From a virus: 64,000 nucleotides of DNA. The notes beneath the pieces are model-generated. The model ran no database searches, was not told the DNA's origin, and saw only the letters and a program-made list of their open reading frames with translations. The stretch covers positions 1 to 64,000 of IMG/VR virus record IMGVR_UViG_3300025141_000065; one strand, given 5' to 3'. Both the position numbers and the translations under genes were made by a program. Numbering within the stretch: the stretch's first letter is position 1; every line of letters starts with the position of its first letter. Below, one piece after another: positions 1 to 62,057 of this stretch.

Positions 1-148
1 GATTTTTTGATCTGATTTAATTCTATCAGACGTGTCAAGCGTTGTATATATTTTTTTAGTTATTGTTTACAAACTTTAGAGAATTTTAATGTCCGGTTAT
101 TCGCCGGGTAAATGGTTATTGTTGGGGAAAAAAAATTCCGGGTCGACT

Positions 149-424
149 CCCCTCCCCTCCGGGTCGGCCCTCCCCTCCAGCCCTCCGCCCCTCCAGCCCA
201 GCTCCCCTCCCCTCCAGCCCTCCGCCCCTCCAGCCCAGCTCCCCTCCCTCCTGAGACCCCTCCCCTCCAGCAGCACCTCCCTCCGCAGTATTATGGATTC
301 CCCTCCCCTCCGTAGTATCTGATTCCCCTCCCCTCCAGCATCCCCTCCCTCCAGTCCTCCGCCCCTCCCTCCAGCATCCCCTCCCCTCCGGAGGGCCTCC
401 CCTCCAGACCTCCGCCCCTCCCCT
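149..424. repeat. Pyrimidine-rich CCCCTCC interspersed repeat array 1
   Basis: About 30 CCTCC pentamers, mostly as CCCCTCCCCTCC units, separated by spacers of a few to about 15 bases. A 37-bp segment is tandemly duplicated at 179-252. Frames on both strands stay open only because of the composition, so I do not call a gene. Read on the minus strand the units are GGAGGGGAGGGG, which resemble Shine-Dalgarno sequences and could also form G-quadruplexes. Two more arrays lie at 2673-2937 and 13088-13346. Function unknown. Confidence 0.9.
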
Positions 425-432
425 GATAAATA

Positions 433-444
433 GAACATATGTCC
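433..444. promoter_or_regulatory. LexA-like box, one mismatch
   Basis: GAACATATGTCC differs by one base from the GAAC-N4-GTTC palindrome bound by LexA of Gram-positive and related bacteria. It sits immediately downstream of repeat array 1, as the better boxes do downstream of array 2. On its own the match is weak; the recurrence of the arrangement is what supports it. Confidence 0.4.
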
Positions 445-464
445 TAATGTAATCTGCGAAAGAT

Positions 465-684
465 TGTGAAAATAATCACTAAGTCTTTTTTTTTATTATT
501 ATGAATGAACGAGCCTCGCCTCAAGCCAACCGCATTGTGAAAAAAATCACAATATAGAAAATTCAATCCAAAACGGATTGTGAAAATAATCACAATGTAG
601 ATATAGATTCGGATTCGTTTACCGTTTGTGAAAAAAATCACAATGTAGAAACCCAATCTCAAAGCGATTGTGAAAAATATCACA
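465..684. promoter_or_regulatory. Cluster of five TTGTGA-N6-TCACAA palindromes
   Basis: Palindromes with TGTGA-N6-TCAC(A) cores lie at 465-480, 536-551, 579-594, 627-642 and 669-684; the first ends TCACT. Most extend to TTGTGA...TCACAA, and several are followed by ATGTAGAAA-like flanks. Start-to-start spacings are 71, 43, 48 and 42 bp. The motif equals the CRP core and closely matches published Rex (NADH-sensing repressor) operators and Bacillus FNR sites. The block could be an operator array, an iteron-type origin or a titrating decoy. No gene or clear promoter lies inside it. Confidence 0.8.
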
Positions 685-692
685 AGTATAAA

Positions 693-1001
693 ATGCTATC
701 ACTTGGTTTTGATATGGTATGGTATGGACGCCAAGTTAGAGGTAGGCACAAATCAACATACAGCAAGAATAAAAAAAATGTGGACAGGGCTGGTTCTGAC
801 CCAAGAAAAAAATCGCTGTGCGAGGATCGAAAAATGATTGTGAAAAATATCACAGAGCGAATTATAGCATACTCTTTTGAATATGGCAATAGTTTAAATG
901 CAATTCAATTTCAATATTATAGCACTTTAGTTGTAGCCAAATATGCGCCATGGTGTTATAATGGTTATATACAAAACAGGCATCGACATGCCACACAATA
1001 G
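693..1001 (+). CDS. Doubtful hypothetical protein
   Basis: Open frame of 102 codons with no convincing ribosome binding site. It overlaps a further TGTGA-N6-TCACA palindrome at 839-854, which supplies the residues IVKNIT. There is no recognisable domain. It could be a fortuitous frame in the operator region or a leader of the gene that follows. Confidence 0.2.
   Translation: MLSLGFDMVWYGRQVRGRHKSTYSKNKKNVDRAGSDPRKKSLCEDRKMIVKNITERIIAYSFEYGNSLNAIQFQYYSTLVVAKYAPWCYNGYIQNRHRHATQ
839..854. promoter_or_regulatory. Sixth TGTGA-N6-TCACA palindrome
   Basis: Perfect inverted pentamers around six A/T bases, same motif as the 465-684 cluster but 170 bp further right, about 160 bp upstream of the first well-supported gene at 1013. 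Confidence 0.7.
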
Positions 1002-1012
1002 GAGTGATCAAT

Positions 1013-1234
1013 ATGAACGGATTCGCATTAACTGGAAACCAGATTCAAAAAGCAAGACTCATAACTTTATATAAAGGTATGGAGTTAGAAGGCAAGATAA
1101 AGGGATTTAAACTGACTAGTAGAAGCAGAAGTGCGCTAGCCATTACAAAATCTAAATTTGGGTGGAAAGGGAATAGAGCTAAAATCATGGCTAACCTTAA
1201 AAATGTTATTGACGATATGCCAGATACTCCGTAA
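1013..1234 (+). CDS. Hypothetical protein, 73 aa
   Basis: Basic small protein, no recognised family. A GTG at 1004 would give three more residues, but the ATG at 1013 has AGGAG ending 8 bases upstream and is the better start. Residues 25-55 are rich in Lys, Arg and Ser (LTSRSRSALAITKSKFGWKG), which suggests nucleic-acid contact, though this is only composition. It is followed by an orphan Shine-Dalgarno site and a terminator hairpin. Confidence 0.6.
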   Translation: MNGFALTGNQIQKARLITLYKGMELEGKIKGFKLTSRSRSALAITKSKFGWKGNRAKIMANLKNVIDDMPDTP

Positions 1235-1248
1235 TACCGACACGGGGA

Positions 1249-1258
1249 AAGGAGGTGC
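1249..1258 (+). promoter_or_regulatory. Orphan perfect Shine-Dalgarno site
   Basis: AAAGGAGGTG is a near-perfect complement of the 16S rRNA 3' end, but no ATG, GTG or TTG lies at the usual distance. The codon 7 bases on is ATC, opening a nine-codon frame that stops just before the hairpin at 1296. It may be the remnant of a lost gene, or a tiny leader frame using a rare start. Confidence 0.4.
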
Positions 1259-1295
1259 AAAGACATCAAACAACGGGCCGATCAATCAAGTTAGG

Positions 1296-1320
1296 GCCAC
1301 CGCTCCGGCGGTGGCTTTAT
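1296..1320 (+). terminator. Hairpin terminator GCCACCGC/GCGGTGGC
   Basis: Perfect 8-bp GC-rich stem (1296-1303 with 1308-1315), UCCG loop, followed by TTTAT. The ribosome binding site of the next gene starts only a few bases later. It is one of four similar hairpins in this region (also 1550, 4191, 6091). Confidence 0.75.
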
Positions 1321-1336
1321 AAAGGGGAAAATTAAT

Positions 1337-1537
1337 ATGTTAGGAATATCAGGATTCAAAACTAAAAAAGAATTGAAACAAGCAGTCGGCACTAAGCCAG
1401 ATTTTATTGAGACTAGTTTTTTTGGGCCAGAATATATAGGTGATGGCACCTATGCAGTAGTCGGCCCTGATCCAATGATCCGTAAATGGTTTGCAGAATT
1501 AACAATTGTTAATGGCTTGATTCATAAAGTTAGATAG
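1337..1537 (+). CDS. Hypothetical protein, 66 aa
   Basis: Preceded by AAAGGGG about 9 bases from the ATG. Globular-looking sequence with no family I can name. It stands as a single-gene cassette between two GC-rich hairpins (1296-1315 and 1550-1577). Confidence 0.65.
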   Translation: MLGISGFKTKKELKQAVGTKPDFIETSFFGPEYIGDGTYAVVGPDPMIRKWFAELTIVNGLIHKVR

Positions 1538-1549
1538 GTTAAAAACAAT

Positions 1550-1577
1550 AAAGCCGCCGCCTAAAAACGGCGGCTTT
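1550..1577. terminator. Bidirectional hairpin terminator
   Basis: Perfect 10-bp stem AAAGCCGCCG with CGGCGGCTTT around an 8-base CCTAAAAA loop. A-tract and T-tract flanks would allow termination in both directions. The loop is identical to that of the hairpin at 4191-4218. Confidence 0.75.
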
Positions 1578-1592
1578 ACTACAGGAATAAAT

Positions 1593-2369
1593 ATGAACAA
1601 CAAACTTAAATTCTCAAAAGCAAATAGTAAACTACGGAAAATTGCGGAGTGGTCAGATTATCCAGTTAATAGCATTTTTAGTATCGGCCTACCGTCTGGC
1701 TATACTTGCTTAGGCGCGGCGGATATATGCTTATCTTTTGCGCATAAAAAAACGGATAAAATTAGAATAGTAGATGGCAAAAACACAAAATTTCGTTGCT
1801 ATAGCGCAAGCCTAGAAGCCTTACATACTAATTTACGGAATAGCGTTTGGCACAATTATAATCAGCTTAAGAATTTGCATACTAACGAAATGATTGAATT
1901 AATAAGCAGTTCAATACCAAAAAAAGCGCGTCTTATCCGGTGCCACACTAGCGGCGATTTTTTCAATGAAAGATATTTCCAAGCGTTTTTAGCTACAGCT
2001 CGAAAGAATAAATCAATACTGTTTTACGCCTATACAAAGCGGCTGCAGTGGTGGGTTAATAGCTTAAACGGAGTTAGTCCACCAATACCCGGAAATTTTA
2101 AATTTATCGCCAGTCGTGGTGGCAAATTCGACAAGTATATTGACGAATATAAATTGCGGTCAGCTACGGTAGTTTATTCTGAACAGGAAGCAGCGACTAA
2201 AAATTTGATAATCGACTACAATGAGCGGCAAGCCATAACAAGTGATAAATCTTTCGGTTTGCTTATTCATGGCTCGCAACCTAAAGGATCAGTAGGCGGA
2301 ATAGCTATTAAAAATCTTAAGAAAAATAATGTTCAATTTTCATATTCACGAGGTAAACAAAATGAATAA
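1593..2369 (+). CDS. GP88-like phage protein
   Basis: 258 residues. It resembles the family named after mycobacteriophage gene product 88, of unknown biochemical function. Visible hallmarks are an N-terminal LKFSKANSKLRKI segment, a Cys-containing GYTCLGAADIC motif near residue 37, the HTSGDFFNERYFQAF motif near residue 118 and a YTKRL motif soon after. The ATG follows AGGAA by 6 bases, just after the hairpin at 1550. Assigned from motif memory, not from a search. Confidence 0.7.
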   Translation: MNNKLKFSKANSKLRKIAEWSDYPVNSIFSIGLPSGYTCLGAADICLSFAHKKTDKIRIVDGKNTKFRCYSASLEALHTNLRNSVWHNYNQLKNLHTNEMIELISSSIPKKARLIRCHTSGDFFNERYFQAFLATARKNKSILFYAYTKRLQWWVNSLNGVSPPIPGNFKFIASRGGKFDKYIDEYKLRSATVVYSEQEAATKNLIIDYNERQAITSDKSFGLLIHGSQPKGSVGGIAIKNLKKNNVQFSYSRGKQNE

Positions 2370-2562
2370 CAAAAGACTATATACAAAAATAATGCAGCAC
2401 TTAGAAAAATATGGAACGGGGTTTTGGGATTTCAAAACACTTGAAATATCACATCCAAAGTTAGCACTAGCATTGAAACAAATTATTATTGATGTTGGTA
2501 TTCTTGATAGTAATGCTGACTTTAATAAATACTATATACCTAGACGATTATGGCATTATTAA
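2362..2562 (+). CDS. Hypothetical protein, 66 aa
   Basis: The frame opens at 2329, but the ATG at 2362 overlaps the stop of the GP88-like gene as ATGAATAA, a junction seen repeatedly in this phage, so translational coupling is likely. The sequence reads like a small winged-helix or helical protein (MQHLEKYGTGFWDFKTLEIS), with no firm family. Confidence 0.6.
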   Translation: MNNKRLYTKIMQHLEKYGTGFWDFKTLEISHPKLALALKQIIIDVGILDSNADFNKYYIPRRLWHY

Positions 2563-2672
2563 ATTAGCATCCACGTAAAGCAACGTTTACGGGCTTGCCT
2601 ATGCTATGGTATTGCTAAACAATTTAAAGGCCTGTGCGTTGAACTGTGGGGTGGGGTAGGCCCTATATATAT

Positions 2673-2937
2673 GCCCCTCCCCTCCACAATGATCCCCCCT
2701 CCCTCCATACTCCCCTCCATAAACACTTTGGTTCCCCTCCCTCCCCTGTATGAGTAGGCCCCTCCCCTCCACAAGATATAATGCCCCTCCCCTCCAGCCT
2801 CCCTCCACAGGATATGATGCCCGGCCCTCCATGACATATGATTTGCCCCTCCCTCCCATAAGGCTTTGCCCCTCCCCTCCATACCCTCTCCTCCCTCCCA
2901 TCTCTCTCCTCCCTCCCCTCCAAACCCCCTCCCTCCA
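2673..2937. repeat. Pyrimidine-rich CCCCTCC interspersed repeat array 2
   Basis: About 25 CCTCC pentamers with A/T-rich spacers of 5-20 bases. Many units fit (A/T)TGCCCCTCCCCTCC, a consensus shared with array 3 (TGCCCGTCCCTTCC), so arrays 2 and 3 are probably related. Long low-complexity frames cross it on both strands and are not called. The array ends directly at the -35 element of the promoter at 2941. Confidence 0.9.
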
Positions 2938-2940
2938 AGC

Positions 2941-2969
2941 TTGACATTTTTTCTTTAATGTGTTAGTAA
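2941..2969 (+). promoter_or_regulatory. Sigma-70-like promoter abutting array 2
   Basis: TTGACA (2941-2946), 17-base spacer, extended -10 TGT-TAGTAA (2961-2969). A LexA-like box begins 2 bases further on, over the expected transcription start, so LexA-type repression is plausible. The first downstream gene is at 3308. Confidence 0.5.
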
Positions 2970-2971
2970 AC

Positions 2972-3121
2972 GAACAAATGTTCTAATTATGTATAGAACA
3001 AACGTTCTGTAAAAGTTTGTGATTTTTGTCACAATGTTTTAGAACATATATGCTAAAGTTTGTGATTTATTTCACAATATGTTTTCGAACAAATGTTCTA
3101 GGGATTGTGATAAATTTCACA
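2972..3121. promoter_or_regulatory. Interleaved LexA-like boxes and TTGTGA-N6-TCACAA palindromes
   Basis: Perfect GAAC-N4-GTTC boxes lie at 2972-2983, 2996-3007 and 3087-3098, with a degenerate one at 3042-3053. Perfect TGTGA-N6-TCACA palindromes lie at 3018-3033, 3061-3076 and 3106-3121. The order is LexA, LexA, palindrome, half-LexA, palindrome, LexA, palindrome within 150 bp, between the promoters at 2941 and 3191. This is the densest operator region of the window and suggests two regulators acting together. Confidence 0.8.
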
Positions 3122-3190
3122 ACCCCGATTTTACCATGAGTCAAATCTTTTGTCAAGTTTTACTTATTTGTCTCTAATTTCAATAAACGC

Positions 3191-3219
3191 TTGACATTCA
3201 AAAGCCATGATGCTAAGAT
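3191..3219 (+). promoter_or_regulatory. Strong extended -10 sigma-70-like promoter
   Basis: Consensus TTGACA (3191-3196), exactly 17 bases, then TAAGAT (3214-3219) preceded by the extended TGC element. It is best placed to drive the genes from 3308. Confidence 0.75.
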
Positions 3220-3307
3220 TGTATGTAGAGTAACTTAACAACTGAATATGAGATCGAAAGACTTTGTATCTGTTACCTTAATCTCCGAAAGGAAAGAGAG
3301 GAACATT

Positions 3308-3655
3308 ATGGATAAAAAACAAAACAAATTCTGTGGAGTCTGTGGTGAAGAAAATGAAATCTTTCACGAGGATTTCAAAGATGGTGACGAAGTGACTTGG
3401 CGAGAATACTTTTGGGTAGATGGTAGGAAAGATAGTACAATCTTATCAGGTAAAAAAACAACATACTATGTTAAGCATGATAAGGAAACCAAGGCATATT
3501 TAGAGAATCATAAACCGCTTAATTGGAGTCTGGAAAAGGCAAAATATAGATGGCATTATGAACGAACACCTTTAGTTGATATAACTTATCACGGTTTGAA
3601 CCATCATCTTGATGGCATGGGTTTAACAGCTAAAGACTATTATAAAACTAAGTAA
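3308..3655 (+). CDS. Hypothetical protein with N-terminal CxxC
   Basis: The open frame begins at 3248, but the ATG at 3308 lies behind GAGAGGAA and keeps the CGVCGEE motif close to the N-terminus. The 115 residues include many aromatic and acidic positions. There is only one CxxC pair, so a full zinc ribbon is not evident. First gene after the 3191 promoter. No family recognised. Confidence 0.65.
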   Translation: MDKKQNKFCGVCGEENEIFHEDFKDGDEVTWREYFWVDGRKDSTILSGKKTTYYVKHDKETKAYLENHKPLNWSLEKAKYRWHYERTPLVDITYHGLNHHLDGMGLTAKDYYKTK

Positions 3656-3724
3656 TTAATCAGGTGATAGATACAAGGTCAATCGGCAGTCTAGGAAGCT
3701 CAATAAAAATAATGAGGTGACAAT

Positions 3725-4075
3725 ATGTATATAAATAAAACCAGCAATGAATGGATTGCTCCAAATGGTATAGAAATATGCAAGGGCTCATACCATACTG
3801 TGGAAAGGGTGGAACAGTTAGGTTTAGAAGAGGGGGATACAATAGAATGGACAGACAGTGATTATGGTACCCTAACCGGAACCCTTGAATTTCTGGAATG
3901 TACTCCTACGAGTCTGGTAGTAGAGTATTCAAACAAAACTATTATACGCTTAGGTAAAGCACTCTTAGGTGGAGCGGCAACGTTACGACAAGCGCGTGAT
4001 GAACTAAATGATAATGGTGGAACCTACGAATACTTCGACTGCAGATGGTATGACGGATGTGGATTACATAGGTAA
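3725..4075 (+). CDS. Hypothetical protein, 116 aa
   Basis: ATG preceded by GAGGTGA at good spacing. The sequence alternates short beta-like stretches (GDTIEWTDSDYGTLTGTLEF, then a Val/Ile-rich strand), suggesting a small beta-barrel, and ends with Cys/Trp/Tyr-rich residues. I do not recognise it. The small interrupted frame at 4079 follows at once. Confidence 0.65.
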   Translation: MYINKTSNEWIAPNGIEICKGSYHTVERVEQLGLEEGDTIEWTDSDYGTLTGTLEFLECTPTSLVVEYSNKTIIRLGKALLGGAATLRQARDELNDNGGTYEYFDCRWYDGCGLHR

Positions 4076-4078
4076 CGA

Positions 4079-4189
4079 ATGGCAGATAGAAATAGGAAGC
4101 TTATAGAGCAACGTTTATCCTAGCACTGGTATGGTTGGTATATTGAGACGAAAAGAATTGCTGTACAAGGAGTGCAAATGAATAATTAG
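4079..4189 (+). pseudogene. Amber-interrupted small frame
   Basis: ATG at 4079 encodes 14 codons, then TAG at 4121-4123, then 21 further open codons in the same frame (including HWYGWYIETKRIAVQ) to TAG at 4187. The post-amber part looks like real protein. Other genes here stop normally at TAG, so general recoding is unlikely; a decayed gene or local readthrough are the options. Near its end, ACAAGGAG precedes an ATG (4178) that opens only a three-codon frame. Confidence 0.25.
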
Positions 4190-4190
4190 T

Positions 4191-4222
4191 AAGGCCATCG
4201 CCTAAAAACGGTGGCCTTATTT
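4191..4222 (+). terminator. Hairpin terminator, 10-bp stem
   Basis: AAGGCCATCG pairs with CGGTGGCCTT (one G-T pair) around the CCTAAAAA loop, followed by ATTTT. Same design and identical loop as the hairpin at 1550. Confidence 0.75.
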
Positions 4223-4223
4223 T

Positions 4224-4334
4224 ATGCTCAAATTTACTGACTACAATCCACGCACAGCAAAATTAAAAAATTTGGGGATCGGCCTGCACCTGACACAGAA
4301 TAAAAAACGCTGTACGGGAAAGCTAAATCTGTGA
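4224..4334 (+). CDS. Possible GP88-like N-terminal fragment, 36 aa
   Basis: Short frame starting LKFTDYNPRTAKLKNLGI after the initial Met, reminiscent of the LKFSKANSKLRKI start of the GP88-like protein at 1593. No ribosome binding site precedes it and its stop lies inside the palindrome at 4330. Possibly a remnant of a second copy; weak evidence. Confidence 0.2.
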   Translation: MLKFTDYNPRTAKLKNLGIGLHLTQNKKRCTGKLNL

Positions 4335-4345
4335 TTTATTTCACA
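4330..4345. promoter_or_regulatory. TGTGA-TTTATT-TCACA palindrome
   Basis: Perfect palindrome centred about 84 bp upstream of the likely transcription start of the 4387-4415 promoter, a position compatible with upstream activation by a CRP/FNR-type factor. Identical in core to the 3061 site. Confidence 0.65.
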
Positions 4346-4386
4346 TATAAAATTAATCAAAATAGCTGGAAAATAGCTATATATTG

Positions 4387-4415
4387 TTGCACTTATACTT
4401 GCATGCTGTTATAAT
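4387..4415 (+). promoter_or_regulatory. Strong extended -10 promoter
   Basis: TTGCAC (4387-4392), 17-base spacer, perfect TATAAT (4410-4415) preceded by TGT. The transcript would start near 4422 and carry a leader of about 550 bases before the gene at 5005. Confidence 0.75.
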
Positions 4416-4527
4416 ATAGTAGAACAAGCTAAGGAATGATGAAGTAGAGAGAAGACAAGGTAGCCCAGCAAGAAACTCATTGATTAACGTTACAAAGAAC
4501 ATCCCCTGTCCAAATGTAAAACTCGTA

Positions 4528-4557
4528 GCACATTTGTTCTATGTGATTAATTTCACA
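4528..4557. promoter_or_regulatory. Paired LexA-like and TGTGA-N6-TCACA sites
   Basis: GCACATTTGTTC (4528-4539, one mismatch to GAAC-N4-GTTC) directly followed by TGTGA-TTAATT-TCACA (4542-4557). Third instance of this pairing in the left 5 kb. It lies about 120 bases downstream of the 4387 promoter. Confidence 0.5.
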
Positions 4558-4708
4558 ATAACTGATTCAATTTTGGGTAGGGTGGAATTTGACCATGATC
4601 TAACTGGCGAATACTTTGCTATTTTCTGAACTTTTCTAAAAACTCCTTTCTTGTCTAAACTTTGCTATACTTTTCTTATGGATACAATTTAATGTATCTC
4701 ACTTACAA

Positions 4709-4737
4709 TTATAAGGGTTGTGGGTATATATGTCAAG
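4709..4737 (+). repeat. 29-bp direct repeat, copy A
   Basis: Matches copy B at 4912-4940 with four substitutions. Common core ATTATAAGG-TTGTGGG and TGTCAA. If translated, the differences all change amino acids while the two Cys and Gln are kept. Confidence 0.75.
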
Positions 4738-4740
4738 CAA

Positions 4741-4786
4741 TATGGTTAGAGACTTTAAACCGCCACGCTTATTATCTCTAACCATA
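4741..4786 (+). repeat. Perfect 12-bp inverted repeat
   Basis: TATGGTTAGAGA and its exact complement separated by 22 bases. No T-tract follows, so it is not a simple terminator. It starts four bases after copy A of the direct repeat. Candidate RNA stem or protein-binding site. Confidence 0.75.
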
Positions 4787-4911
4787 CCTGAAAGGAATAT
4801 CGGTTAATATGTTTTGAAGGAGCAGGACTCGCTTGATAGCTCTACTCCCCTAATAATGGGAATAACAAAACCCAAAATCAATTCACATTAACGACATAAA
4901 CATGAGACTCC

Positions 4912-4940
4912 ATTATAAGGCTTGTGGGCATACGTGTCAA
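4912..4940 (+). repeat. 29-bp direct repeat, copy B
   Basis: Second copy, 203 bp from copy A, inside a 28-codon frame (4902-4988) that starts MRLHYKACGHTCQ. That frame overlaps the upstream end of the next gene. Confidence 0.75.
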
Positions 4941-5004
4941 ACCCCAATAAAAAAGACCTGCAAAATACTTGACAGGGATAATAGGTAATGTTACTTTTTA
5001 TCAC

Positions 5005-5442
5005 ATGACCCAACAATTAACTACAATAGCAAATACTGAAACTGGCTATCAGGAAATGCACAGGCAAATCAAACAAACCAGTGGCAGGCTATTCTATATA
5101 CTCTCAGTAATACCAGACCCTTTATATGCCTCTGGCTTTAGGATCAGAGAATTTATGGGTAGAACGGGCGTAAAGAAATATTATCCAACTAAACAACACT
5201 CTAACCCAAGATATGACTACGATACAGCAAGAAATACCCTAGTTAATATAACCAGTACAGCTAGAACACTTGAAATGCTCCGTACGGTTAAAGCAGACAG
5301 GGTTGCAGTCCTACTGTGTAAAGACATCTATATCAATAAAGAACTATATTATAAGGCTCTCAGAATTAAACAGGAAAATGACCAACAATTATCTGAGAAC
5401 ATTATTCAATTAATCAATAATCATAATTTAAGTAATTCATAG
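5005..5442 (+). CDS. Hypothetical protein, 145 aa
   Basis: A TTG at 4969 would add 12 residues; the ATG at 5005 (MTQQLTTIAN) is the more ordinary start, although neither has a strong ribosome binding site. The protein is Thr-, Arg- and Tyr-rich, mostly helical in appearance, and contains a short hydrophobic run (ADRVAVLLCKDIYI). No family recognised. Probably expressed from the 4387 promoter. Confidence 0.6.
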   Translation: MTQQLTTIANTETGYQEMHRQIKQTSGRLFYILSVIPDPLYASGFRIREFMGRTGVKKYYPTKQHSNPRYDYDTARNTLVNITSTARTLEMLRTVKADRVAVLLCKDIYINKELYYKALRIKQENDQQLSENIIQLINNHNLSNS

Positions 5443-5452
5443 GAGTCAACTA

Positions 5453-5683
5453 ATGAGAATAGAAGAATCCAATATAGAGGCGTCTAAGAGGACATTAGAG
5501 AAGCATTTTAAACTTGACTATAGTAATGGTACTTTAGACGAAAAACAGAGGGCTGAATTAGCTAAAGACTTCAGGGCTATTCTTTATTCTTTGTATTGTA
5601 TTGAATCTCTTATATTGGTTGAGGAGATTGAGATTTTTAATATGTTGAAGTTGGATTGTCATTGTATGGATTTAAGGGATTAA
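5453..5683 (+). CDS. Hypothetical protein, 76 aa
   Basis: Ten bases after the previous stop, with TAGGAG upstream of the ATG, so same operon. Helical, acidic, with Cys residues near the C-terminus (KLDCHCMDLRD). Not recognised. Confidence 0.65.
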   Translation: MRIEESNIEASKRTLEKHFKLDYSNGTLDEKQRAELAKDFRAILYSLYCIESLILVEEIEIFNMLKLDCHCMDLRD

Positions 5684-5727
5684 TTTTTCTTTGCGCCGGA
5701 CTTTTCAAAGCAAAAGAGTTGAAAGAC

Positions 5728-5757
5728 TTGACAAGAAATATAAACTGATGTTACTCT
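5728..5757 (+). promoter_or_regulatory. Sigma-70-like promoter
   Basis: TTGACA (5728-5733), 18-base spacer, extended -10 TGT-TACTCT ending at 5757. It lies in the gap between 5683 and 5859, upstream of the long rightward run of small genes. Confidence 0.5.
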
Positions 5758-5858
5758 GTATTTAGTTAAGACAAAACACGAAAAGGAACTAAGAGACATT
5801 AGAAAAAACACAACTGAATATCGGAGTGGATAGATTAATTAAAACAAAGGAGTATTGA

Positions 5859-6086
5859 ATGGCACTAGTTTACGAAGTCCAGATTAAAACCGAAAGCGGT
5901 CACGATTGGAAGAAGATACGTCAAATTTTTGATGGGGTTAATTCACCTATGACAGAACCGTATAGCTACAAAATAAAGCGTAGTGATAAATATATACCAA
6001 GTGGAATGCCTGTCGTTGACTGCAATAGAGATTGGGACTTTATAAAAACAACATATAAAGAAAGATTAGATTCATATAAATTTTAA
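5859..6086 (+). CDS. Hypothetical protein, 75 aa
   Basis: AAAGGAG precedes the ATG by about 8 bases. Small soluble-looking protein with an aromatic C-terminal half, no family recognised. First gene after the 5728 promoter, separated from the next gene by the hairpin at 6091. Confidence 0.7.
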   Translation: MALVYEVQIKTESGHDWKKIRQIFDGVNSPMTEPYSYKIKRSDKYIPSGMPVVDCNRDWDFIKTTYKERLDSYKF

Positions 6087-6090
6087 GTTA

Positions 6091-6120
6091 AGGCCACCGC
6101 CAAAACGCGGTGGCTTTATT
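6091..6120 (+). terminator. Hairpin terminator GCCACCGC/GCGGTGGC
   Basis: 8-bp perfect stem (6093-6100 with 6107-6114), CAAAAC loop, followed by TTTATTAT. The stem is identical to that at 1296-1315. The next gene's ribosome binding site begins within 10 bases, so genes downstream depend on readthrough or another promoter. Confidence 0.75.
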
Positions 6121-6138
6121 ATAGGAGTAAATAAATCA

Positions 6139-6498
6139 ATGGCTTATAGAACTAAAAAAAGGAACTTCACTAAACAACAAAAACAGATGAATGAAGTGCT
6201 TAAAAGAGAGGAACAAAACGTCAGAGCTTTAAAGCGTCTTATTTTAGACGTTGGAGAATCGGCTCTTGATAGTAAATTGGGGTTCGTTAAATGTGTATGC
6301 GGAACTGACTGTATACCACTCAACAAGTTAGGTATAAGTAAAACTGAATGGCAAATACATTACGAAACAACTTTATTACCTAAAATTGCAGAGCAAAGAT
6401 CAAAGTACCCAAAATTACGAGACAGGATAACTAACGACTACAAACCAGCACATGTTTCGTGGAATGACTTGCGGTCAGCGAGCGAAAAATTTATATAA
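6139..6498 (+). CDS. Hypothetical protein, 119 aa, CxC
   Basis: Preceded by AGGAG. The N-terminus is very basic (RTKKRNFTKQQKQ), followed by a helical stretch and one KCVCGTDC cluster near residue 53, suggesting metal or nucleic-acid binding. Not recognised. Confidence 0.7.
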   Translation: MAYRTKKRNFTKQQKQMNEVLKREEQNVRALKRLILDVGESALDSKLGFVKCVCGTDCIPLNKLGISKTEWQIHYETTLLPKIAEQRSKYPKLRDRITNDYKPAHVSWNDLRSASEKFI

Positions 6499-6515
6499 CA
6501 AGGAGTAAAGAAAGA

Positions 6516-6809
6516 ATGAAAGACCAATTTATAACACAAATTACAGATGAAGATTTTCCTCCAGTGTGGGAAGTATCTGAGATGCGAGAATATGACCGAT
6601 GGAGCTTTAATGCTGGACAATCTTATCCAGTCATTTTAAAAGAATTTGGAACACTTGAAGATGCACAGAAGGAATATCCAAAGGCCGAATATCAGGCTGA
6701 GTCTATGCCTTTAAATACTAATAATTTCGATCATTTACCCGATGAGGAAATGACGGCATACCAAGAGCAATCATATTGGGATAACTATGACGGTCGTAGG
6801 GACTGGTAA
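6516..6809 (+). CDS. Hypothetical acidic protein, 97 aa
   Basis: AAGGAG about 9 bases upstream of the ATG. Strongly acidic with many aromatic residues (EVSEMREYDRWSFNAGQSYP). Such acidic small phage proteins often bind host proteins or mimic DNA, but nothing here proves this. Three bases separate it from the next gene. Confidence 0.7.
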   Translation: MKDQFITQITDEDFPPVWEVSEMREYDRWSFNAGQSYPVILKEFGTLEDAQKEYPKAEYQAESMPLNTNNFDHLPDEEMTAYQEQSYWDNYDGRRDW

Positions 6810-6812
6810 ACA

Positions 6813-7142
6813 ATGTATTACACAATGACACAATCAGATTTTCTTGACGCGTTCAGGGGTGCTAATGGGTGGTCAGACACCTATAAGAACAATTTTAGTT
6901 ATACTGGTTTACTCGCTTTATATGAGTATCTTGAAAATTTAGAGGATGATACCGGCGAGAAGTTAGAATTTGACCGCGTTGCGATTGCTTGCGATTTTAG
7001 CGAGTATGACAGCATAAAAGAATTTCAATCCGATTATGGTAAACCAGAAATAAAAACGCTTGACGATTTAAGCAACGAAACAGTAGTTATAAAAGTCGAT
7101 GATCCTGACAGGGAAAACGCTTTCATAATGGGGGTGTTTTAA
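6813..7142 (+). CDS. Conserved small phage protein, 109 aa
   Basis: Acidic protein with the pattern FSYTGLLALYEYLENLEDDTG, then IACDFSEYDSIKEF and QSDYG. I recall this pattern from short uncharacterised proteins in many phages and plasmids, without known function. Packed between its neighbours with almost no gap. Confidence 0.7.
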   Translation: MYYTMTQSDFLDAFRGANGWSDTYKNNFSYTGLLALYEYLENLEDDTGEKLEFDRVAIACDFSEYDSIKEFQSDYGKPEIKTLDDLSNETVVIKVDDPDRENAFIMGVF

Positions 7143-7325
7143 ATGCCTAAATATGAAGTGATCGTTAAATTCGTTGAGCATTATAGACACGAGGTGACGG
7201 CAGACTCACAACAAGAAGCGCAAGCACAAGTAGAAGAAGGCCTTTACGAAGGCAACACAGGCGAGTTAATAGAGAACTCAGGCGACATTTATGTAGAGTC
7301 TGTTACAGAGGTAAACAATGGGTAA
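7143..7325 (+). CDS. Small DpnD/PcfM-like protein, 60 aa
   Basis: Pattern MPKYEVIVKFVEHYRHEVTA, then an Ala/Gln/Glu helix, resembles short DpnD/PcfM-type proteins (a beta strand followed by a helix of an EAExxEEA type). Function of that group is not settled. It overlaps the following gene by 8 bases, so the two are probably coupled. Confidence 0.55.
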   Translation: MPKYEVIVKFVEHYRHEVTADSQQEAQAQVEEGLYEGNTGELIENSGDIYVESVTEVNNG

Positions 7326-7695
7326 CAGAGCAGTATTAGAGTTTGAAGATAATCCAGTAGGTATATATTTACACTGGAATGGCGGTAGAAACACCGTAGA
7401 GCCATTATTAGAGGTTGCTAGGGAGTATGGGGTTAGAGGCGATGATTATGGCGTAGCTAGATTAGCACAAATGATAGGCAACTTTTTTGGTGGAACTTTA
7501 TCAATAGGCGTTGGCCTAGTCGATAGAATGGATTGCGACAATGGCGACAATGGCGTTTATTTAATAGACAACAATCTAAACATAATAGAGCGGAAGTATT
7601 TTAGCGGACAGGAACAAACAAAAGATGATCCAAAGTTAATCAAACAACATTTTAAAAAGATTAATGACGATATATTTAAAAAGGAGAATGAATGA
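7318..7695 (+). CDS. Conserved hypothetical, MGNRAV family
   Basis: Starts MGNRAVLEFEDNPVGIYLHW, followed by NGGRNTVEPLL, DYGVARLAQMIGNFFGG and a DNGVYLID element. This pattern recurs in uncharacterised phage and plasmid proteins. The ATG follows GAGG closely. The overlap with the next gene is an ATGA. Confidence 0.7.
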   Translation: MGNRAVLEFEDNPVGIYLHWNGGRNTVEPLLEVAREYGVRGDDYGVARLAQMIGNFFGGTLSIGVGLVDRMDCDNGDNGVYLIDNNLNIIERKYFSGQEQTKDDPKLIKQHFKKINDDIFKKENE

Positions 7696-8438
7696 CTTAT
7701 TTCAAATTGAAGGATAAATACCCTAACAGGAAAGTAACCTATACTGCGCTAGTTAAAGCAGTTAGTGGAAACGAATATCGAACACTACAATCCATCGGTG
7801 ATGAGTTTGGAGTTACTAGGGAAAGAGTAAGACAGTTGTTAATAAAACATGGGCTGTCTGATGTGCCATCGCGTCAAAAGCCAGACCCTAGAAAAATTTG
7901 TAGACATTGTAACAATCCTGTGGAAATGCGCTATTTTATTAGAACAACATCGAGTAATAAAGGCGCGTGGTATCCAGCATCACACCAAGAGTGTCGAGAC
8001 AAGTGGAGTGTTAATAATTGGACAGAAGTACAATGTACTAATTGTCAAATACCAATAGAACTACGGAAGTCTGACGCTCGACTCAAACGGCGAATAAAGG
8101 ACTGGTTGTTTTGTAGTAAAAGGTGTTCAACAACATATCGCGTTGCAAATGAGACTGATTGGTTTGGAACTTGGGCAAAGAGTAGCCATCTTAACCGGCG
8201 CAACTACAAGAAATCTATTCTCCCTAAGAAAGAGGCAAGTAAAGCACCTGTCCAAAAAGAAAGAGAAAAAACCAAAATGGAGATGGCTGAGGAGAAATTT
8301 GGTGATCTTAAAGTTTTAATTCCAAATTTAATTGAGGAAGTCGGAGTTGGTAACACAGCTAAAGCGTTGGAAATAAGCAGACCTACGTTTGACCGCTGGA
8401 GAACAAGATTAGCAATTCAAAAGGCGAGCAGACTATGA
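7692..8438 (+). CDS. Helix-turn-helix protein with two zinc motifs
   Basis: 248 residues. Residues 34-58 (SIGDEFGVTRERVRQLLIKH) form a sigma-region-4-like helix-turn-helix. Next come CRHC (about residue 73) with a later Cys, then CTNC...FCSKRC (about residues 116-150), like the zinc-stabilised core of HNH-type phage proteins, but I see no clear HNH catalytic set. A second possible HTH lies near the C-terminus (GNTAKALEISRPTFDRWRTR). Same architecture as the leftward protein at 45596. Probably a DNA-binding regulator or a degenerate homing endonuclease. AAGGAG precedes the start. Confidence 0.7.
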   Translation: MTYFKLKDKYPNRKVTYTALVKAVSGNEYRTLQSIGDEFGVTRERVRQLLIKHGLSDVPSRQKPDPRKICRHCNNPVEMRYFIRTTSSNKGAWYPASHQECRDKWSVNNWTEVQCTNCQIPIELRKSDARLKRRIKDWLFCSKRCSTTYRVANETDWFGTWAKSSHLNRRNYKKSILPKKEASKAPVQKEREKTKMEMAEEKFGDLKVLIPNLIEEVGVGNTAKALEISRPTFDRWRTRLAIQKASRL

Positions 8439-8632
8439 GTGATGGAGTTAGAAACAGCCTAATAAAAGAATATGGGATATCTGAGATAGTTAATAAGATA
8501 GTATCGCAGATGCCTATTGAAGAATTAGAGGATATTGTACAGGCTCATATCGAGGATGAATTATCAGTATTAGCAGAAGACTTAGGAGATCGACAGAAGT
8601 TTATAAACGAAGTACAGGAGATATACTTTTAA
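8435..8632 (+). CDS. Hypothetical acidic protein, 65 aa
   Basis: Start overlaps the previous stop as ATGA. Entirely helical-looking, acidic, no Cys. No family recognised. The next gene starts on its stop codon (TAATG). Confidence 0.65.
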   Translation: MSDGVRNSLIKEYGISEIVNKIVSQMPIEELEDIVQAHIEDELSVLAEDLGDRQKFINEVQEIYF

Positions 8633-8877
8633 TGTTACTACAACCTTTAAGGACTGGAAAACAACTGTTACTAAATCAGGTTGGTCGGATTGTAGATATT
8701 TTTGACGCGGACGTCATAACATTCGAGTTACAATCATCAAATGGTAAAAAGGTCATTAAACGCTTGCCGTACAGCCACGAAAAAGGATGTCCGAAGGCAG
8801 ATACACCAGAGACCTTAAAAGAATCGCTGTACTGTACGTGTAAATCAAATTGGGAGCTTAATCATGTTAAAAATTAA
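8632..8877 (+). CDS. Hypothetical protein with C-terminal Cys motif
   Basis: 81 residues. The N-terminal half has a small beta-barrel look (GRIVDIFDADVITFELQSSN). The C-terminal half carries GCPKAD and YCTCKSNW, potentially a single zinc site. TAATG coupling with the upstream gene; overlaps the downstream gene by 14 bases. Confidence 0.65.
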   Translation: MLLQPLRTGKQLLLNQVGRIVDIFDADVITFELQSSNGKKVIKRLPYSHEKGCPKADTPETLKESLYCTCKSNWELNHVKN

Positions 8878-9148
8878 CACCTCTAAAGACAGGACTTGTT
8901 GGAACTGTAAGAAACAAGCTGTAGATCACATTGTCTATTATGAAACTACGACTGTTAAGGGATTTGTTTGCCAAAACTGTTTAGACCAGTTTACCATGTG
9001 TGATAGATGTCAAATGGAAATACCACCTGAACAAATCCACTATATTGTTACAGCACTAAAGACCCAAGACGCGGAGCAAGTCTGTATAACTTGCATTGAC
9101 CCCTGTTTAGACGTAAATGTCAGCTCTAACGTTAGGGCGGTGTATTAA
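8864..9148 (+). CDS. Zinc-ribbon protein, 94 aa
   Basis: Four CxxC pairs: CWNCKK, CQNC, CDRC and CITC, spaced like two interleaved zinc ribbons or a treble-clef pair. The C-terminus is short and non-basic. Likely a DNA- or protein-binding accessory factor; exact role unknown. Confidence 0.7.
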   Translation: MLKINTSKDRTCWNCKKQAVDHIVYYETTTVKGFVCQNCLDQFTMCDRCQMEIPPEQIHYIVTALKTQDAEQVCITCIDPCLDVNVSSNVRAVY

Positions 9149-9375
9149 TGAGATATATAAGAACCATCCAAATACCAGATCAATTCTATTTTGAATTTGA
9201 TGCTGAAACACCAGAGGAGATCGACTTGGCATTTAAAGATCATTGGGATATTGATAAACAAGATTTCATTGATACTCTCAGCGTTAATGATTTGGACATT
9301 ATAAAAACAGAGACAGAACAGGCTTTTAAAGACCGCCAGAAAGCCGAGAGAGCAAAGATTTTCGGAAATGACTAG
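9148..9375 (+). CDS. Hypothetical protein, 75 aa
   Basis: TAATG junction with the previous gene. One beta-type N-terminus (MRYIRTIQIPDQFYFEFDAE) and an acidic helix. Not recognised. Confidence 0.65.
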   Translation: MRYIRTIQIPDQFYFEFDAETPEEIDLAFKDHWDIDKQDFIDTLSVNDLDIIKTETEQAFKDRQKAERAKIFGND

Positions 9376-9423
9376 CAGAGCTTATAAAATTAAAAAGAAT
9401 AGCTTAAAAAGGAAAAGATAAAA

Positions 9424-10572
9424 ATGTTTAAATTATTAACAACAACAAAGGATCAAACTATGTATCAATCACAAGTTCAATATAGATATGAGAGATGGAG
9501 TATTCAAAAAATATTAAAGTTAAAAGCAACAGGTAAATTACAAAGAGACCTTACTTATCAAAGAAACGATAAGATATGGGCAACCGAAAAAAGAAACGAA
9601 TTTTGTCAAGGGTTGTTTAATTATCCTATGTCGTCTCCAATTTTGTTGGACGGACGCGTTAAAACACACTATAAGATCATTAACGGACAGCAAAGACTAC
9701 ACACCCTAAATGACTTGTATGAAGATAATTTAAAGTTAAAGCCACTTCTACATAAAAAGTATGGACATCAATTATCGGGCTTTTTTATTGAGTTACCAAA
9801 AGCAGCTAAAAATTTCATATTAAAAGAGAAACTTAATATAGTTATAGCGGAAACTGGATCGGATCAAGATATAATTGAACTTTATCAAAACGAAAATCAA
9901 GGAACGCCGTTAAATAGTGCAGAGATGCGAAAACCTTTAAACCATGAATTAAATGCCTTTCTCGATACTTTGCTTAATAAGCATTATATTTTTAAATATA
10001 AAGATTTAAAAAATTCAGACCCGAAAAAAGCTCCGATAATAAACGCTACACAGCATAGAGAATCATTAAGAACTTTGATTGAACAATGTTTATTGATTTT
10101 CAATCATAGTGATATAAGAGTAAGTATTTCAAATGAGCAATTAACAAAACAAGCGTTAACGATTAATAACCAAATATTAAATCAAGAATTTGTAAGAAAT
10201 ATGATTAATGCGTTTAATTATGTGGGTAAAGGGGTCGAAAAAATTAAACGAACAAATCCCGATTTAATAATAAAAGCACGTGGTCAAGGGGGTAAGAGTG
10301 GGGGAATTCTCAGTAAAGCTCTAATTAAACATGCCTTATATTGTTATGATGTCCTACTGCAAAGGGGTTATCCAATCAAAGGCCAAGAAGAAAATTTTAT
10401 GGGGTATATACTACAATATAAATTCGTACCAGACTTAAAGCGGAGAATGGCTGTTTATTATTCGCGTGATAATAGTGCAAAACTCCGATGGGAGGCACAT
10501 CAGTTCATGTTAAGGCGACTATTAAAAGAGAAGTGGTTAGTTCGGCCAATAAATATAAGTAAGGTCGCTTAA
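9424..10572 (+). CDS. DUF262-type protein (GmrS N-terminal-like)
   Basis: 382 residues. It shows the DUF262 pattern: TYQRNDKIWATEKRNEFCQG (residues 44-63), then ILLDG, then IINGQQRLHTL (85-95), equivalent to the ParB/Srx-like nucleotide-binding motif IxDGQQR of GmrS. The usual Asp is Asn87 here. No HNH (DUF1524) nuclease domain follows, so it resembles stand-alone DUF262 proteins. Family members include type IV restriction subunits and anti-phage or anti-restriction proteins; the role in this phage is unknown. An alternative start is the ATG at 9460. Confidence 0.7.
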   Translation: MFKLLTTTKDQTMYQSQVQYRYERWSIQKILKLKATGKLQRDLTYQRNDKIWATEKRNEFCQGLFNYPMSSPILLDGRVKTHYKIINGQQRLHTLNDLYEDNLKLKPLLHKKYGHQLSGFFIELPKAAKNFILKEKLNIVIAETGSDQDIIELYQNENQGTPLNSAEMRKPLNHELNAFLDTLLNKHYIFKYKDLKNSDPKKAPIINATQHRESLRTLIEQCLLIFNHSDIRVSISNEQLTKQALTINNQILNQEFVRNMINAFNYVGKGVEKIKRTNPDLIIKARGQGGKSGGILSKALIKHALYCYDVLLQRGYPIKGQEENFMGYILQYKFVPDLKRRMAVYYSRDNSAKLRWEAHQFMLRRLLKEKWLVRPINISKVA

Positions 10573-10599
10573 TCTATTTAATTTAAGGAGAAATACAAA

Positions 10600-10836
10600 A
10601 TGACTATAAAAAGAAACCATAGCCCAAGTATGCACTATAACCATAATGAAACAGAAATAGCGGTTTTATTCACAGATGAATACTGCTCTTTTTACATGCC
10701 CAATGATCCAGAGCCGATCTTTGGTATAAGACGTGAGATAGTGGAAATATTAGCGCATCAATGGCCTGATGGAACAGAGGTGTGTCCAGCTTGTGACTCG
10801 GACGACCCGAACCACACAATGCAAGGAGCAGACTGA
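10600..10836 (+). CDS. Hypothetical protein with CPAC motif
   Basis: 78 residues, preceded by AAGGAG. A C-terminal VCPACDSDDPNH motif suggests a partial metal site. Its stop TGA is immediately followed by the ATG of the next tiny zinc-ribbon gene. Confidence 0.65.
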   Translation: MTIKRNHSPSMHYNHNETEIAVLFTDEYCSFYMPNDPEPIFGIRREIVEILAHQWPDGTEVCPACDSDDPNHTMQGAD

Positions 10837-10953
10837 ATGATTAACGAGAAAGATAATATCTGCCCTGAATGTGAACACTCACTAATCGAGGGATCAGACT
10901 ATTGCCACAATTGCGATCCACCGCAGGAGTGGGAAAGAGTAGAAAATGAATAA
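10837..10953 (+). CDS. Tiny zinc-ribbon protein, 38 aa
   Basis: Starts directly after the previous stop, with GCAAGGAGCA at the right distance. The short sequence contains ICPECEHS and YCHNCDPP, a complete C-x2-C...C-x2-C zinc ribbon. It overlaps the next gene by 8 bases (ATGAATAA). Function unknown. Confidence 0.7.
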   Translation: MINEKDNICPECEHSLIEGSDYCHNCDPPQEWERVENE

Positions 10954-11149
10954 CATTGATTGGCCTATTTCAGAGATTGAAACAGAAATACAAATAACTT
11001 GGTCAATCCATGATGTAAAGAGTAGAGATTCAACTCTAAGTGATGATGAGGCAATAGAGATTTTGTTGTTGATTAGAGATAATCACGATGCGTCAATAGG
11101 GGTTAATTGGGATGTGATAGATGCAGCAATCGAGTGTTGGAAGAAGTGA
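10946..11149 (+). CDS. Hypothetical acidic protein, 67 aa
   Basis: Start embedded in the stop of the preceding gene (ATGAATAA). Acidic and helical with several Trp residues. No family recognised. Confidence 0.65.
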   Translation: MNNIDWPISEIETEIQITWSIHDVKSRDSTLSDDEAIEILLLIRDNHDASIGVNWDVIDAAIECWKK

Positions 11150-11276
11150 CAATAGAGTATTGGTGACTAATAAACCCATAAAACGATCGACACACAGCCA
11201 CGAAAAGATAGTCCAGATAGCTACCACACCAAAGACTAACTAAAAAACGCTCTAATTTAAACAAGGACACAATACA

Positions 11277-11558
11277 ATGCTGAAATACGAAGTTACTACA
11301 GATATGGTTGAACATTACTTTGCAGGTAATTTAAAAAAATTGACTCAGGTATTCAATGGACTATTCAAAGAAAATACTAGATTGAAATCGGAGTTTATTA
11401 AAAATCTCAACTACGATATACTAGAGAGGTTTCTCAATGCTGATTGCAACATACACGAGCCGTCAGGCTGGCATTGTGAAGAGTGTTGTGATTGCCGGAC
11501 TAAAGGCCAGTTAAAGGAGTGGGACTGGCCTATTGGATGTAGATATGACCATGAATAA
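11277..11558 (+). CDS. Hypothetical protein with C-terminal Cys cluster
   Basis: 93 residues: helical N-terminal half, then a Cys-rich region (HCEECCDCRTKG) beginning with DCNIHEPS. The 18-bp DNA encoding DCNIHE recurs at 11767-11784. Metal binding is likely. The last codons overlap the start of the next gene. Confidence 0.65.
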   Translation: MLKYEVTTDMVEHYFAGNLKKLTQVFNGLFKENTRLKSEFIKNLNYDILERFLNADCNIHEPSGWHCEECCDCRTKGQLKEWDWPIGCRYDHE

Positions 11559-11769
11559 TCAAGAGCAAGAATTTGAATGTGTGTTTGAGTGTACAGGTTG
11601 TGGCTCATATCCGACCGAACAGATAATCGAGGATGAAGGACGGCCTGTATCCTATTGTGAGTATTGTGAGATAGATATCGTGTTCGAGTGTTTACTGGTT
11701 TATAAATCGCGCGGAGGCCACGACACATGTATAGGCACTTATCCAATGGGAGAAAAAAATGAAGTATGA
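11551..11769 (+). CDS. Zinc-ribbon protein, about 72 aa
   Basis: Candidate starts are TTG 11533, ATG 11545 and ATG 11551; the last forms the ATGAATAA overlap typical of this phage and is chosen. CTGC and CEYC pairs about 20 residues apart form a zinc ribbon. No named family. Confidence 0.65.
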   Translation: MNNQEQEFECVFECTGCGSYPTEQIIEDEGRPVSYCEYCEIDIVFECLLVYKSRGGHDTCIGTYPMGEKNEV

Positions 11770-11800
11770 TTGCAACATACACGAAGATGTAAATGAGTAA
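11759..11800 (+). pseudogene. 13-codon remnant sharing DCNIHE
   Basis: ATG behind GGGAGA encodes 13 residues containing YDCNIHED, then stops. The 18 bp at 11767-11784 are identical to 11441-11458 in the gene at 11277. Probably the start of a lost paralogue or the scar of an unequal recombination. Confidence 0.3.
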
Positions 11801-11805
11801 ATTTA

Positions 11806-11814
11806 TGTTATAAT
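11806..11814 (+). promoter_or_regulatory. Extended -10 element TGT-TATAAT
   Basis: Perfect TATAAT with the TGN extension and no good -35. It lies just upstream of two hairpins and a terminator, with no gene between, so it may start a small RNA near 11821. Confidence 0.5.
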
Positions 11815-11820
11815 TTAAAG

Positions 11821-11910
11821 ATAGTTGATAGTAGGGGTTTAACCAGCTACTATCGTTAGGCCAAAGACCCTAGATGGTTTCTTATTTACTCCTCATCTAG
11901 GGTCTTTTTT
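11821..11910 (+). ncRNA. Candidate small RNA, about 90 nt
   Basis: Between the extended -10 at 11806 and the terminator lies an 8-bp inverted repeat GATAGTAG/CTACTATC (11827-11834 with 11847-11854). No frame of useful length is present. Could alternatively be only the 3' end of the upstream operon. Confidence 0.4.
11863..11910 (+). terminator. Strong intrinsic terminator
   Basis: Perfect 14-bp stem AAAGACCCTAGATG with CATCTAGGGTCTTT, 17-base loop, followed by further T residues. Ends the rightward run of small genes. Confidence 0.9.
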
Positions 11911-11952
11911 ATGTTATTTTAAAAATACCTCAAAAAACGGTTTGAGAAAGGC

Positions 11953-11980
11953 TTGAAATTGTTTTAGAAGTGTCTATGAT
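11953..11980 (+). promoter_or_regulatory. Sigma-70-like promoter
   Basis: TTGAAA (11953-11958), 16-base spacer, TATGAT (11975-11980), located between the terminator and the gene at 12007. It probably restarts transcription for the short 12007-12499 operon. Confidence 0.55.
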
Positions 11981-12006
11981 ATGTATAGGAAATAGGAGAG
12001 GTATTT

Positions 12007-12976: not shown

Positions 12977-13105
12977 GTGACAGCAGAAAACAAAAATATA
13001 TGGGAAGTGCTTATAATTGAAAATTGTAAGCACTTAAAAAAGAAAAAAGAGAAAACATATATTTTGAGAGGCGAACCAAATTTTTTTGCCCGTCCCTTCC
13101 TATAG
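12977..13105 (+). CDS. Possible 42-aa frame running into array 3
   Basis: GTG start preceded by a very good GGAGGA 10 bases upstream. Basic Lys-rich middle. The last codons (ARPFL) are encoded by the first unit of repeat array 3, and a 14-bp inverted repeat lies inside. May be a truncated gene or a leader peptide. Confidence 0.3.
   Translation: MTAENKNIWEVLIIENCKHLKKKKEKTYILRGEPNFFARPFL
13005..13035. repeat. 14-bp inverted repeat with 3-base loop
   Basis: AAGTGCTTATAATT and its complement (one G-T pair) around GAA. No T-tract on either strand, so not a standard terminator. It lies in the convergence zone between rightward and leftward genes. Confidence 0.6.
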
Positions 13106-13346
13106 GCCTTCCACTTCCTATAAACTAGAATTTATATCCCCCCCCTTCCTATATAGACTCCCTTCCTACTTAACCTTCCACTTCCTCTAATAACAATGCC
13201 CGTCCCTTCCACTTCCATTCCTTCCTATGATGCTATGCCCTTCCCTTCCTATCTACCCCGTCCCTTCCTATCTAACCTCCTCCTTCCTATACTCCCATAA
13301 TCTAATATGCCCCCCCCTTCCTACTTCCTATGCCCCGCCCTTCCTA
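13088..13346. repeat. CCCTTCC interspersed repeat array 3
   Basis: About 20 CTTCC units, many as TGCCCGTCCCTTCC followed by TAT, with A/T-rich spacers. Related in design to array 2 but with CCCTTCC instead of CCCCTCC. On the minus strand it reads GGAAGGGACGGGCA. It lies directly after the last leftward gene, so leftward transcripts would carry it as a 3' region. Confidence 0.9.
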
Positions 13347-13351
13347 AGAGA

Positions 13352-13940: not shown

Positions 13941-13997
13941 TACTATAACCCCTTCCTTAATATTTTTGAGGGTACTTCGCGCATTTTTCTATCTTTC

Positions 13998-62033: not shown

Positions 62034-62057
62034 TGTTATAGCTCTCCTTGTGTATTA

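Follow-up and report, generated by a model that had tools for sequence, protein, structure and literature searches.

What role is played by a composite sequence module that occurs twice near the left end of a phage genome is the question raised by IMG/VR virus record IMGVR_UViG_3300025141_000065, whose first 64,000 of 71,507 bases (hereafter the window) were analysed. From the letters of this stretch, an original prediction had described a G-rich array, LexA-like boxes and TTGTGA-N6-TCACAA palindromes following one another in two places, and had proposed that they form one functional unit, either a control region, an origin, or a host-regulator decoy combined with an array RNA. Two control regions of matching architecture are in fact present (Table 1), with a leftward promoter layout that had been missed, and the explanation favoured here is that these modules would be stress-responsive control hubs of the phage, using host LexA together with a Rex-like, less likely a CRP-like, repressor; judged from sequence, this is given a probability of about one half. 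The phage, which we take from the IMG sample numbers of near-identical contigs to be probably marine, has no named relative in INPHARED by megablast of window 1-12000 or by tblastn of its terminase, and BLAST of the operator region against the same database returned weak matches only.

Operators and promoters of the two modules

As originally described, array 1 is followed by a LexA-like box with one mismatch (433) and by six palindromes, four of them perfect and two with one mismatch. In module 2, the three perfect boxes and three perfect palindromes are likewise there, while the claimed order is not, since boxes and palindromes alternate. Perfect palindromes number seven in the record, all between 535 and 3122, compared with none in an order-2 Markov simulation of the record, from which the chance expectations were taken; with mismatched copies the window holds 11. 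A regular palindrome spacing of 42-48 bp is seen. Three perfect GAAC-N4-GTTC boxes against 0.8 expected (maximum 4 in the simulation) is an ordinary number, and it is their clustering within 127 bp that is remarkable. These boxes (GAACAAATGTTC, GAACAAACGTTC and again GAACAAATGTTC) have the palindromic sequence and purine/AT-type core of a Gram-positive-type LexA operator and lie within ~150 bp of the predicted start of the leftward promoter of module 2.

The promoter originally placed at 2941 (TTGACA...TAGTAA) is weak, and the strong predicted promoters face leftward, at 889-861 and 3156-3128 (P(-)1 and P(-)2), each with a back-to-back rightward partner (P(+)1 and P(+)2). The nearest palindrome follows the -10 element of P(-) by 5 nt in both modules, its centre falling at about +7.5 of the predicted start, so that in each case it lies over or just past the start, in the position of a Rex operator. 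Outside the operators, modules 1 and 2 are not alignable, and therefore the shared layout is not the trivial outcome of a recent duplication; a recent duplication of the whole module is ruled out, the alignment being limited to the operator and only the array leader being duplicated. The identical spacing from -10 to palindrome and the back-to-back layout, in two modules that are otherwise unalignable, count in favour of control hubs.

Each hub would thus comprise two back-to-back promoters, with a palindromic operator at the predicted start of P(-) and, downstream of it, further palindromes, SOS-type boxes and then the array, G-rich on the sense strand; P(+) would head a set of small genes. 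The GAAC-N4-GTTC boxes would be bound by the host SOS repressor LexA and the palindromes by a host regulator of the Rex type or, less likely, of the CRP type. Together, these proteins may repress P(-), and perhaps both promoters of the pair, until DNA is damaged or the redox or energy state changes, and a phage-encoded RecA/UvsX-like recombinase (window 37541-38479; PF00154, 8e-44), which also bears on recombination-dependent replication, could feed into LexA release. Transcription from P(-) would cross the palindromes and SOS-type boxes before reaching the array, whose G-rich RNA would be liable to form R-loops or G-quadruplexes; an array RNA, as originally proposed, is predicted by promoter geometry to be a leftward one. 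A family search among the phage proteins of this incomplete record found no LexA/S24, Rex, CRP or integrase family, and the regulators would therefore be the host's or unrecognised ones.

Two further sites, at 4329 and 4528-4558, stand without an array. Two perfect 12/12 sigma-70 promoters on the minus strand (window 4708-4736 and 4912-4940; TTGACA-17-TATAAT) face leftward toward the second of them.

Table 1. Features of the two modules and related elements (window coordinates; ORF, open reading frame).
Feature	Position	Strand	Description
Array-1 leader	31..112		~82-100 bp; near copy precedes array 3 (pairwise alignment)
Array 1	149..424	-	CCCCTCC words on plus strand, GGGGAGG on leftward-transcribed strand
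LexA-like box GAACATATGTCC	433..444		1 mismatch to GAAC-N4-GTTC
Palindrome TTGTGAAAATAATCACTA	464..481		1 mismatch
Palindrome TTGTGA-N6-TCACAA	535..552		perfect
Palindrome	578..595		perfect
Palindrome	626..643		perfect
Palindrome	668..685		perfect
Palindrome	838..855		1 mismatch; begins 5 nt past -10 of P(-)1
P(-)1	861..889	-	TTGCCA-17-TATAAT with TG extension; consensus match; leftward through operators into array 1
P(+)1	934..962	+	TAGCCA-17-TATAAT with TG; paired back to back with P(-)1; precedes ORF at 1004
Array 2	2673..2937	-	CCCCTCC words on plus strand, G-rich on leftward strand; ~22-25-bp spacing
SOS-type box GAACAAATGTTC	2972..2983		perfect GAAC-N4-GTTC
SOS-type box GAACAAACGTTC	2996..3007		perfect GAAC-N4-GTTC
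Palindrome	3017..3034		perfect
SOS-type box GAACATATATGC	3042..3053		degenerate
Palindrome	3060..3077		perfect
SOS-type box GAACAAATGTTC	3087..3098		perfect GAAC-N4-GTTC
Palindrome	3105..3122		perfect; begins 5 nt past -10 of P(-)2
P(-)2	3128..3156	-	TTGACA-17-TAAAAT with TG extension; leftward into operators and array 2
P(+)2	3191..3219	+	TTGACA-17-TAAGAT with TG; paired back to back with P(-)2; precedes ORF at 3248
Palindrome CTGTGATTTATTTCACAT	4329..4346		2 mismatches; no array nearby
Third composite, GCACATTTGTTC and ATGTGATTAATTTCACAA	4528..4558		array-less; degenerate GAAC box at 4528, palindrome at 4541
Array 4	13088..13346	-	related G-rich array of TAGGAAGGG words; end of leftward operon, without operators

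Paired operators in other phages and in prokaryote genomes

A scan for GAAC-N4-GTTC boxes lying <=33 bp from a TTGTGA-N6-TCACAA palindrome returned 22 stretches (L162-L183) from 2.9 million viral contigs and 25 from 257 Gb of prokaryote genomes, as raw hit counts not scaled to total viral bases. Every prokaryote stretch holds a single isolated pair with random-looking cores, as chance would give, and this collection therefore serves as a built-in negative control. One viral stretch (L178) is a second contig of the same phage; the other 21, none with CCCTCC arrays, represent roughly ten lineages (GC 0.34-0.56), whose independence was judged, on contigs that are fragments, by gene content and GC and not by trees. 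Many of the viral matches are dense, multi-site clusters, with 4 palindromes and 4 boxes in ~260 bp (L162), 5 palindromes in ~220 bp (a 36.9-kb record) or, in the 41.8-kb contig G018, every one of its 12 palindromes and 5 boxes in 640 bp. Moreover, the viral boxes carry the canonical SOS core (GAACATATGTTC, GAACATTTGTTC, GAACGCATGTTC), which matches the published Gram-positive SOS consensus (PMC2248561, PMC4551915). The occurrence of such clusters in about ten other phage lineages counts for control hubs.

A terminase large-subunit gene is close to the cluster in four of the other viral stretches. The G018 cluster (L171 1025-1664; G018 6493-7132), the densest found, has several palindromes fused end to end and lies near an amidase/endolysin gene. 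WhiB, an actinobacterial marker, is encoded in six cluster-bearing records, so that those phages probably infect Actinobacteria, a group with both LexA boxes of this kind and Rex. Among the half-sites of the other phages, TTGTGAA accounts for 43/60 in the non-WhiB group and for 18/24 in one WhiB group.

The same comparison bears on who binds the sites. It is quite unlikely that one or two unrecognised phage-encoded regulators do so, in a stoperator-like manner: the many small unassigned ORFs of the phage, its helix-turn-helix/sigma-r4-like protein (7692-8438) and the consistent half-site asymmetry of its palindromes would fit, but both consensus sequences are found again in phages that are unrelated and show no candidate gene in common, and the S24/LexA family was not found in the cluster-bearing records except one of 524 kb. 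Titration of host LexA and a Rex/CRP-type protein by replicated phage DNA, acting as a decoy that derepresses host repair and respiratory genes, would account for the many sites per genome (12 palindromes in G018, nearly as many here); yet the sites are set precisely at promoter starts and not scattered, SOS induction is of no obvious use to the phage, and the proposal appears decidedly unlikely.

Several points weigh against control hubs as the explanation. None of the other cluster-bearing phages showed the exact P(-) geometry, and the promoter calls are consensus matches only, with predicted start sites. WhiB was not found in the window record, leaving no WhiB link to a host. The window palindromes have TTGTGAA as one half-site and TTGTGAT as the other, so that the half-sites do not decide between Rex and CRP/FNR. 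Finally, what the array does is judged from strand and composition alone, which hint that stopping or stalling of the P(-) transcript, or priming of replication, through an R-loop or G-quadruplex, may be its most likely job; termination, a translation decoy and slippage-driven expansion are alternatives. Distant relatives sharing tens of kb of core genes (L144-L161) showed no palindromes or arrays, in records that appear not to span the control region.

A weaker link, suggestive only, concerns composition, as the operator clusters of other phages often adjoin the most extreme G/C-run tract of the contig (p=8e-4 with random placement as the null, p=0.08 with non-coding positions as the null, both computed on loci from the composite scan itself). 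Given the latter value, no claim is made that such a tract is a third conserved component of the clusters in other phages. A broader proposal would be that unrelated phages, several actinophages among them, converged on or exchanged a hub of clustered host-LexA and host-Rex operators that reads DNA damage and redox together to time expression, with the adjoining G-run tract (through an R-loop or G-quadruplex) as part of the switch; this is possible, though doubtful.

Composition and strand of the G-rich arrays

Arrays 1 and 2 exist as originally claimed, with 27 and 22 CCCTCC words on the plus strand and 31 and 25 GGAGG words that pair strongly with the anti-Shine-Dalgarno (anti-SD) sequence; up to six RNA G-quadruplexes are predicted per array, array 1 having six. 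A third array, with a 38-bp period, stands at the right end of the record (L009 7820-8008, equal to record 71319-71507) and is also found at the end of contig 3300025131_004782 (L064). The leader copies of arrays 1 and 3 share an identical 60-bp core, and both contigs (L009, L064) break inside array 3, so that the ends of the record cannot be joined. An assembly artefact is ruled out by independent contigs carrying arrays 2 and 3: contig IMGVR 3300002514_001348 is 99.83% identical to window 750-8365, array 2 included. Contig 3300025131_004782 (L064 1-4590 against window 59984-64000) agrees with the right end of the record at >99.9% identity, yet at only 75-92% over the adjoining tail genes, being a recombinant or a close relative.

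Array 4 lies where a rightward and a leftward gene block converge, and it has a counterpart in relative L142 (12064-12280). In G009, a relative 83-94% identical over aligned stretches, the matching place is taken by a G-rich array of another unit, GGGAAGGGGC plus ~14 bp. The plus strand is rich in C and poor in G throughout arrays 1-4, and leftward transcription would give a G-rich RNA from every array. Only two GGAGG words occur in array 4 and none in the G009 array, while the G-run and G-quadruplex potential is retained in both; strand and G-runs thus look constrained, and Shine-Dalgarno mimicry is ruled out as a conserved function. The same evidence makes it improbable that the arrays act on translation or termination, whether by a GGAGG-rich leftward RNA sequestering 30S subunits or by a C-rich rightward RNA masking Shine-Dalgarno sites or serving as a Rho entry site, for all that the anti-SD pairing of arrays 1 and 2 and the C-rich plus strand would suit it.

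A cassette-like stretch of small leftward genes (window 13088-14500; L142 8000-12280) has GGAAG/GGAAGGGG words at or near some indel junctions between relatives, GGAAGGGG being found within coding sequence too. The arrays, with 6-13-bp words and irregular 0-20-bp spacers that differ between arrays, are unlike clustered regularly interspaced short palindromic repeats (CRISPR), in which constant repeats alternate with unique spacers of one length. A search against Rfam gave no RNA family match, and a CCCCTCC-triplet scan of IMG/VR, which returned mostly unrelated repeats, gave no equivalent array except L064 among the matches listed.

Some arrays stand free of operators (array 4, G009) and some operators free of CCCTCC arrays (4329, 4528-4558 and 21 other viral contigs); the module is thus a composite of separable parts, and the idea of the three parts as one inseparable unit is not upheld. 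Of the two observations that the original prediction had named as speaking against itself, arrays apart from operators were found in part, and an assembly artefact was not, independent contigs agreeing. Array and operator field are separable elements that occur together here, and the arrays belong to this phage group.

The arrays also raise the possibility of a replication origin, in which transcription from P(-) through the G-rich array would leave a stable R-loop whose RNA primes replication, the palindromes being iteron-like initiator sites. A G-rich RNA on a C-rich template is an R-loop-prone arrangement, RNA G-quadruplexes are predicted in it, the palindromes are regularly spaced, and the phage encodes, besides the UvsX-like recombinase, PolA, a primase and DnaB; R-loop origins are used by T4 (PMC3016281). 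Nevertheless, array 4 stands at an operon end without operators, the palindromes are not phage-specific as iterons would be, their sequence being shared by sites of unrelated phages, and GC skew follows gene strand and therefore gives no independent origin signal, so that an origin is unlikely and control hubs are preferred.

Elsewhere in the record, the portal protein (window 28247-30247) has as its sole INPHARED relatives the haloarchaeal tailed viruses HVTV-1 and HCTV-5 (27-28%), and a class II-like ribonucleotide reductase is encoded near the portal gene. A SET-domain protein is found at L009 3435-3767 (PF00856, best E-value 4.6e-9 in a pooled scan; the ORF assignment is our own).

Known systems and what the proposed hubs would add

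Control of phages by the LexA of the host is known from a few model systems. What is new here is that the LexA-type boxes are paired with a Rex-like (or CRP-like) palindrome, that this pairing turns up in different phage lineages, and that cellular genomes do not show it in clustered form; searches of the literature turned up no phage operator described as combining LexA with Rex. Given the paired dense operators in many uncultured phages, it may be that phages infecting abundant environmental bacteria sense DNA damage and host energy state jointly; if true, this would be a testable answer to how such phages time replication. The G-rich arrays are a second, unexplained element, whose strand is kept while the words change.

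The operator of the NADH/NAD+-sensing regulator Rex is TTGTGAANNNNTTCACAA, with Streptomyces avermitilis cydA1 given as an example, and one Streptomyces Rex operator covers -3 to +25 (PMC5355995). The likeness lies in a TTGTGA...TCACAA palindrome over the start region of a predicted promoter. As to the consensus TTGTGAA-N4-TTCACAA, the other phages have mostly TTGTGAA, and the window sites match it in one half (TTGTGAA) and not in the other (TTGTGAT); a further difference is that the phage sites, putative Rex sites by sequence, stand in multi-site clusters with SOS boxes. Sites of the CRP/FNR family (TGTGA-N6-TCACA) are alike in half-sites and spacing, but the half-sites of the other phages are mostly TTGTGAA and not TGTGAT, and the placement at about +8 is that of a repressor. 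With the R-loop origins of T4 (PMC3016281), the modules have in common a promoter, a region prone to R-loops and a phage that encodes a UvsX-type recombinase; G-rich tandem arrays are not known there, and an origin function here is putative.

A further comparison is with phage GIL01 of Bacillus thuringiensis, whose P1/P3 promoters are controlled by host LexA and gp7 (PMC4551915, PMC6182141). GIL01 is proven to be temperate, of a type in which lysogeny depends on host LexA and not on a dedicated repressor, whereas no integrase or repressor was found in the present, incomplete record; neither Rex-like palindromes nor G-rich arrays are described in GIL01. The two phages are alike in having Gram-positive SOS boxes at phage promoters; in GIL01 the host SOS repressor controls phage genes, and the P1 boxes lie downstream of the start, so that an action of host LexA on phage promoters from that position has a precedent.

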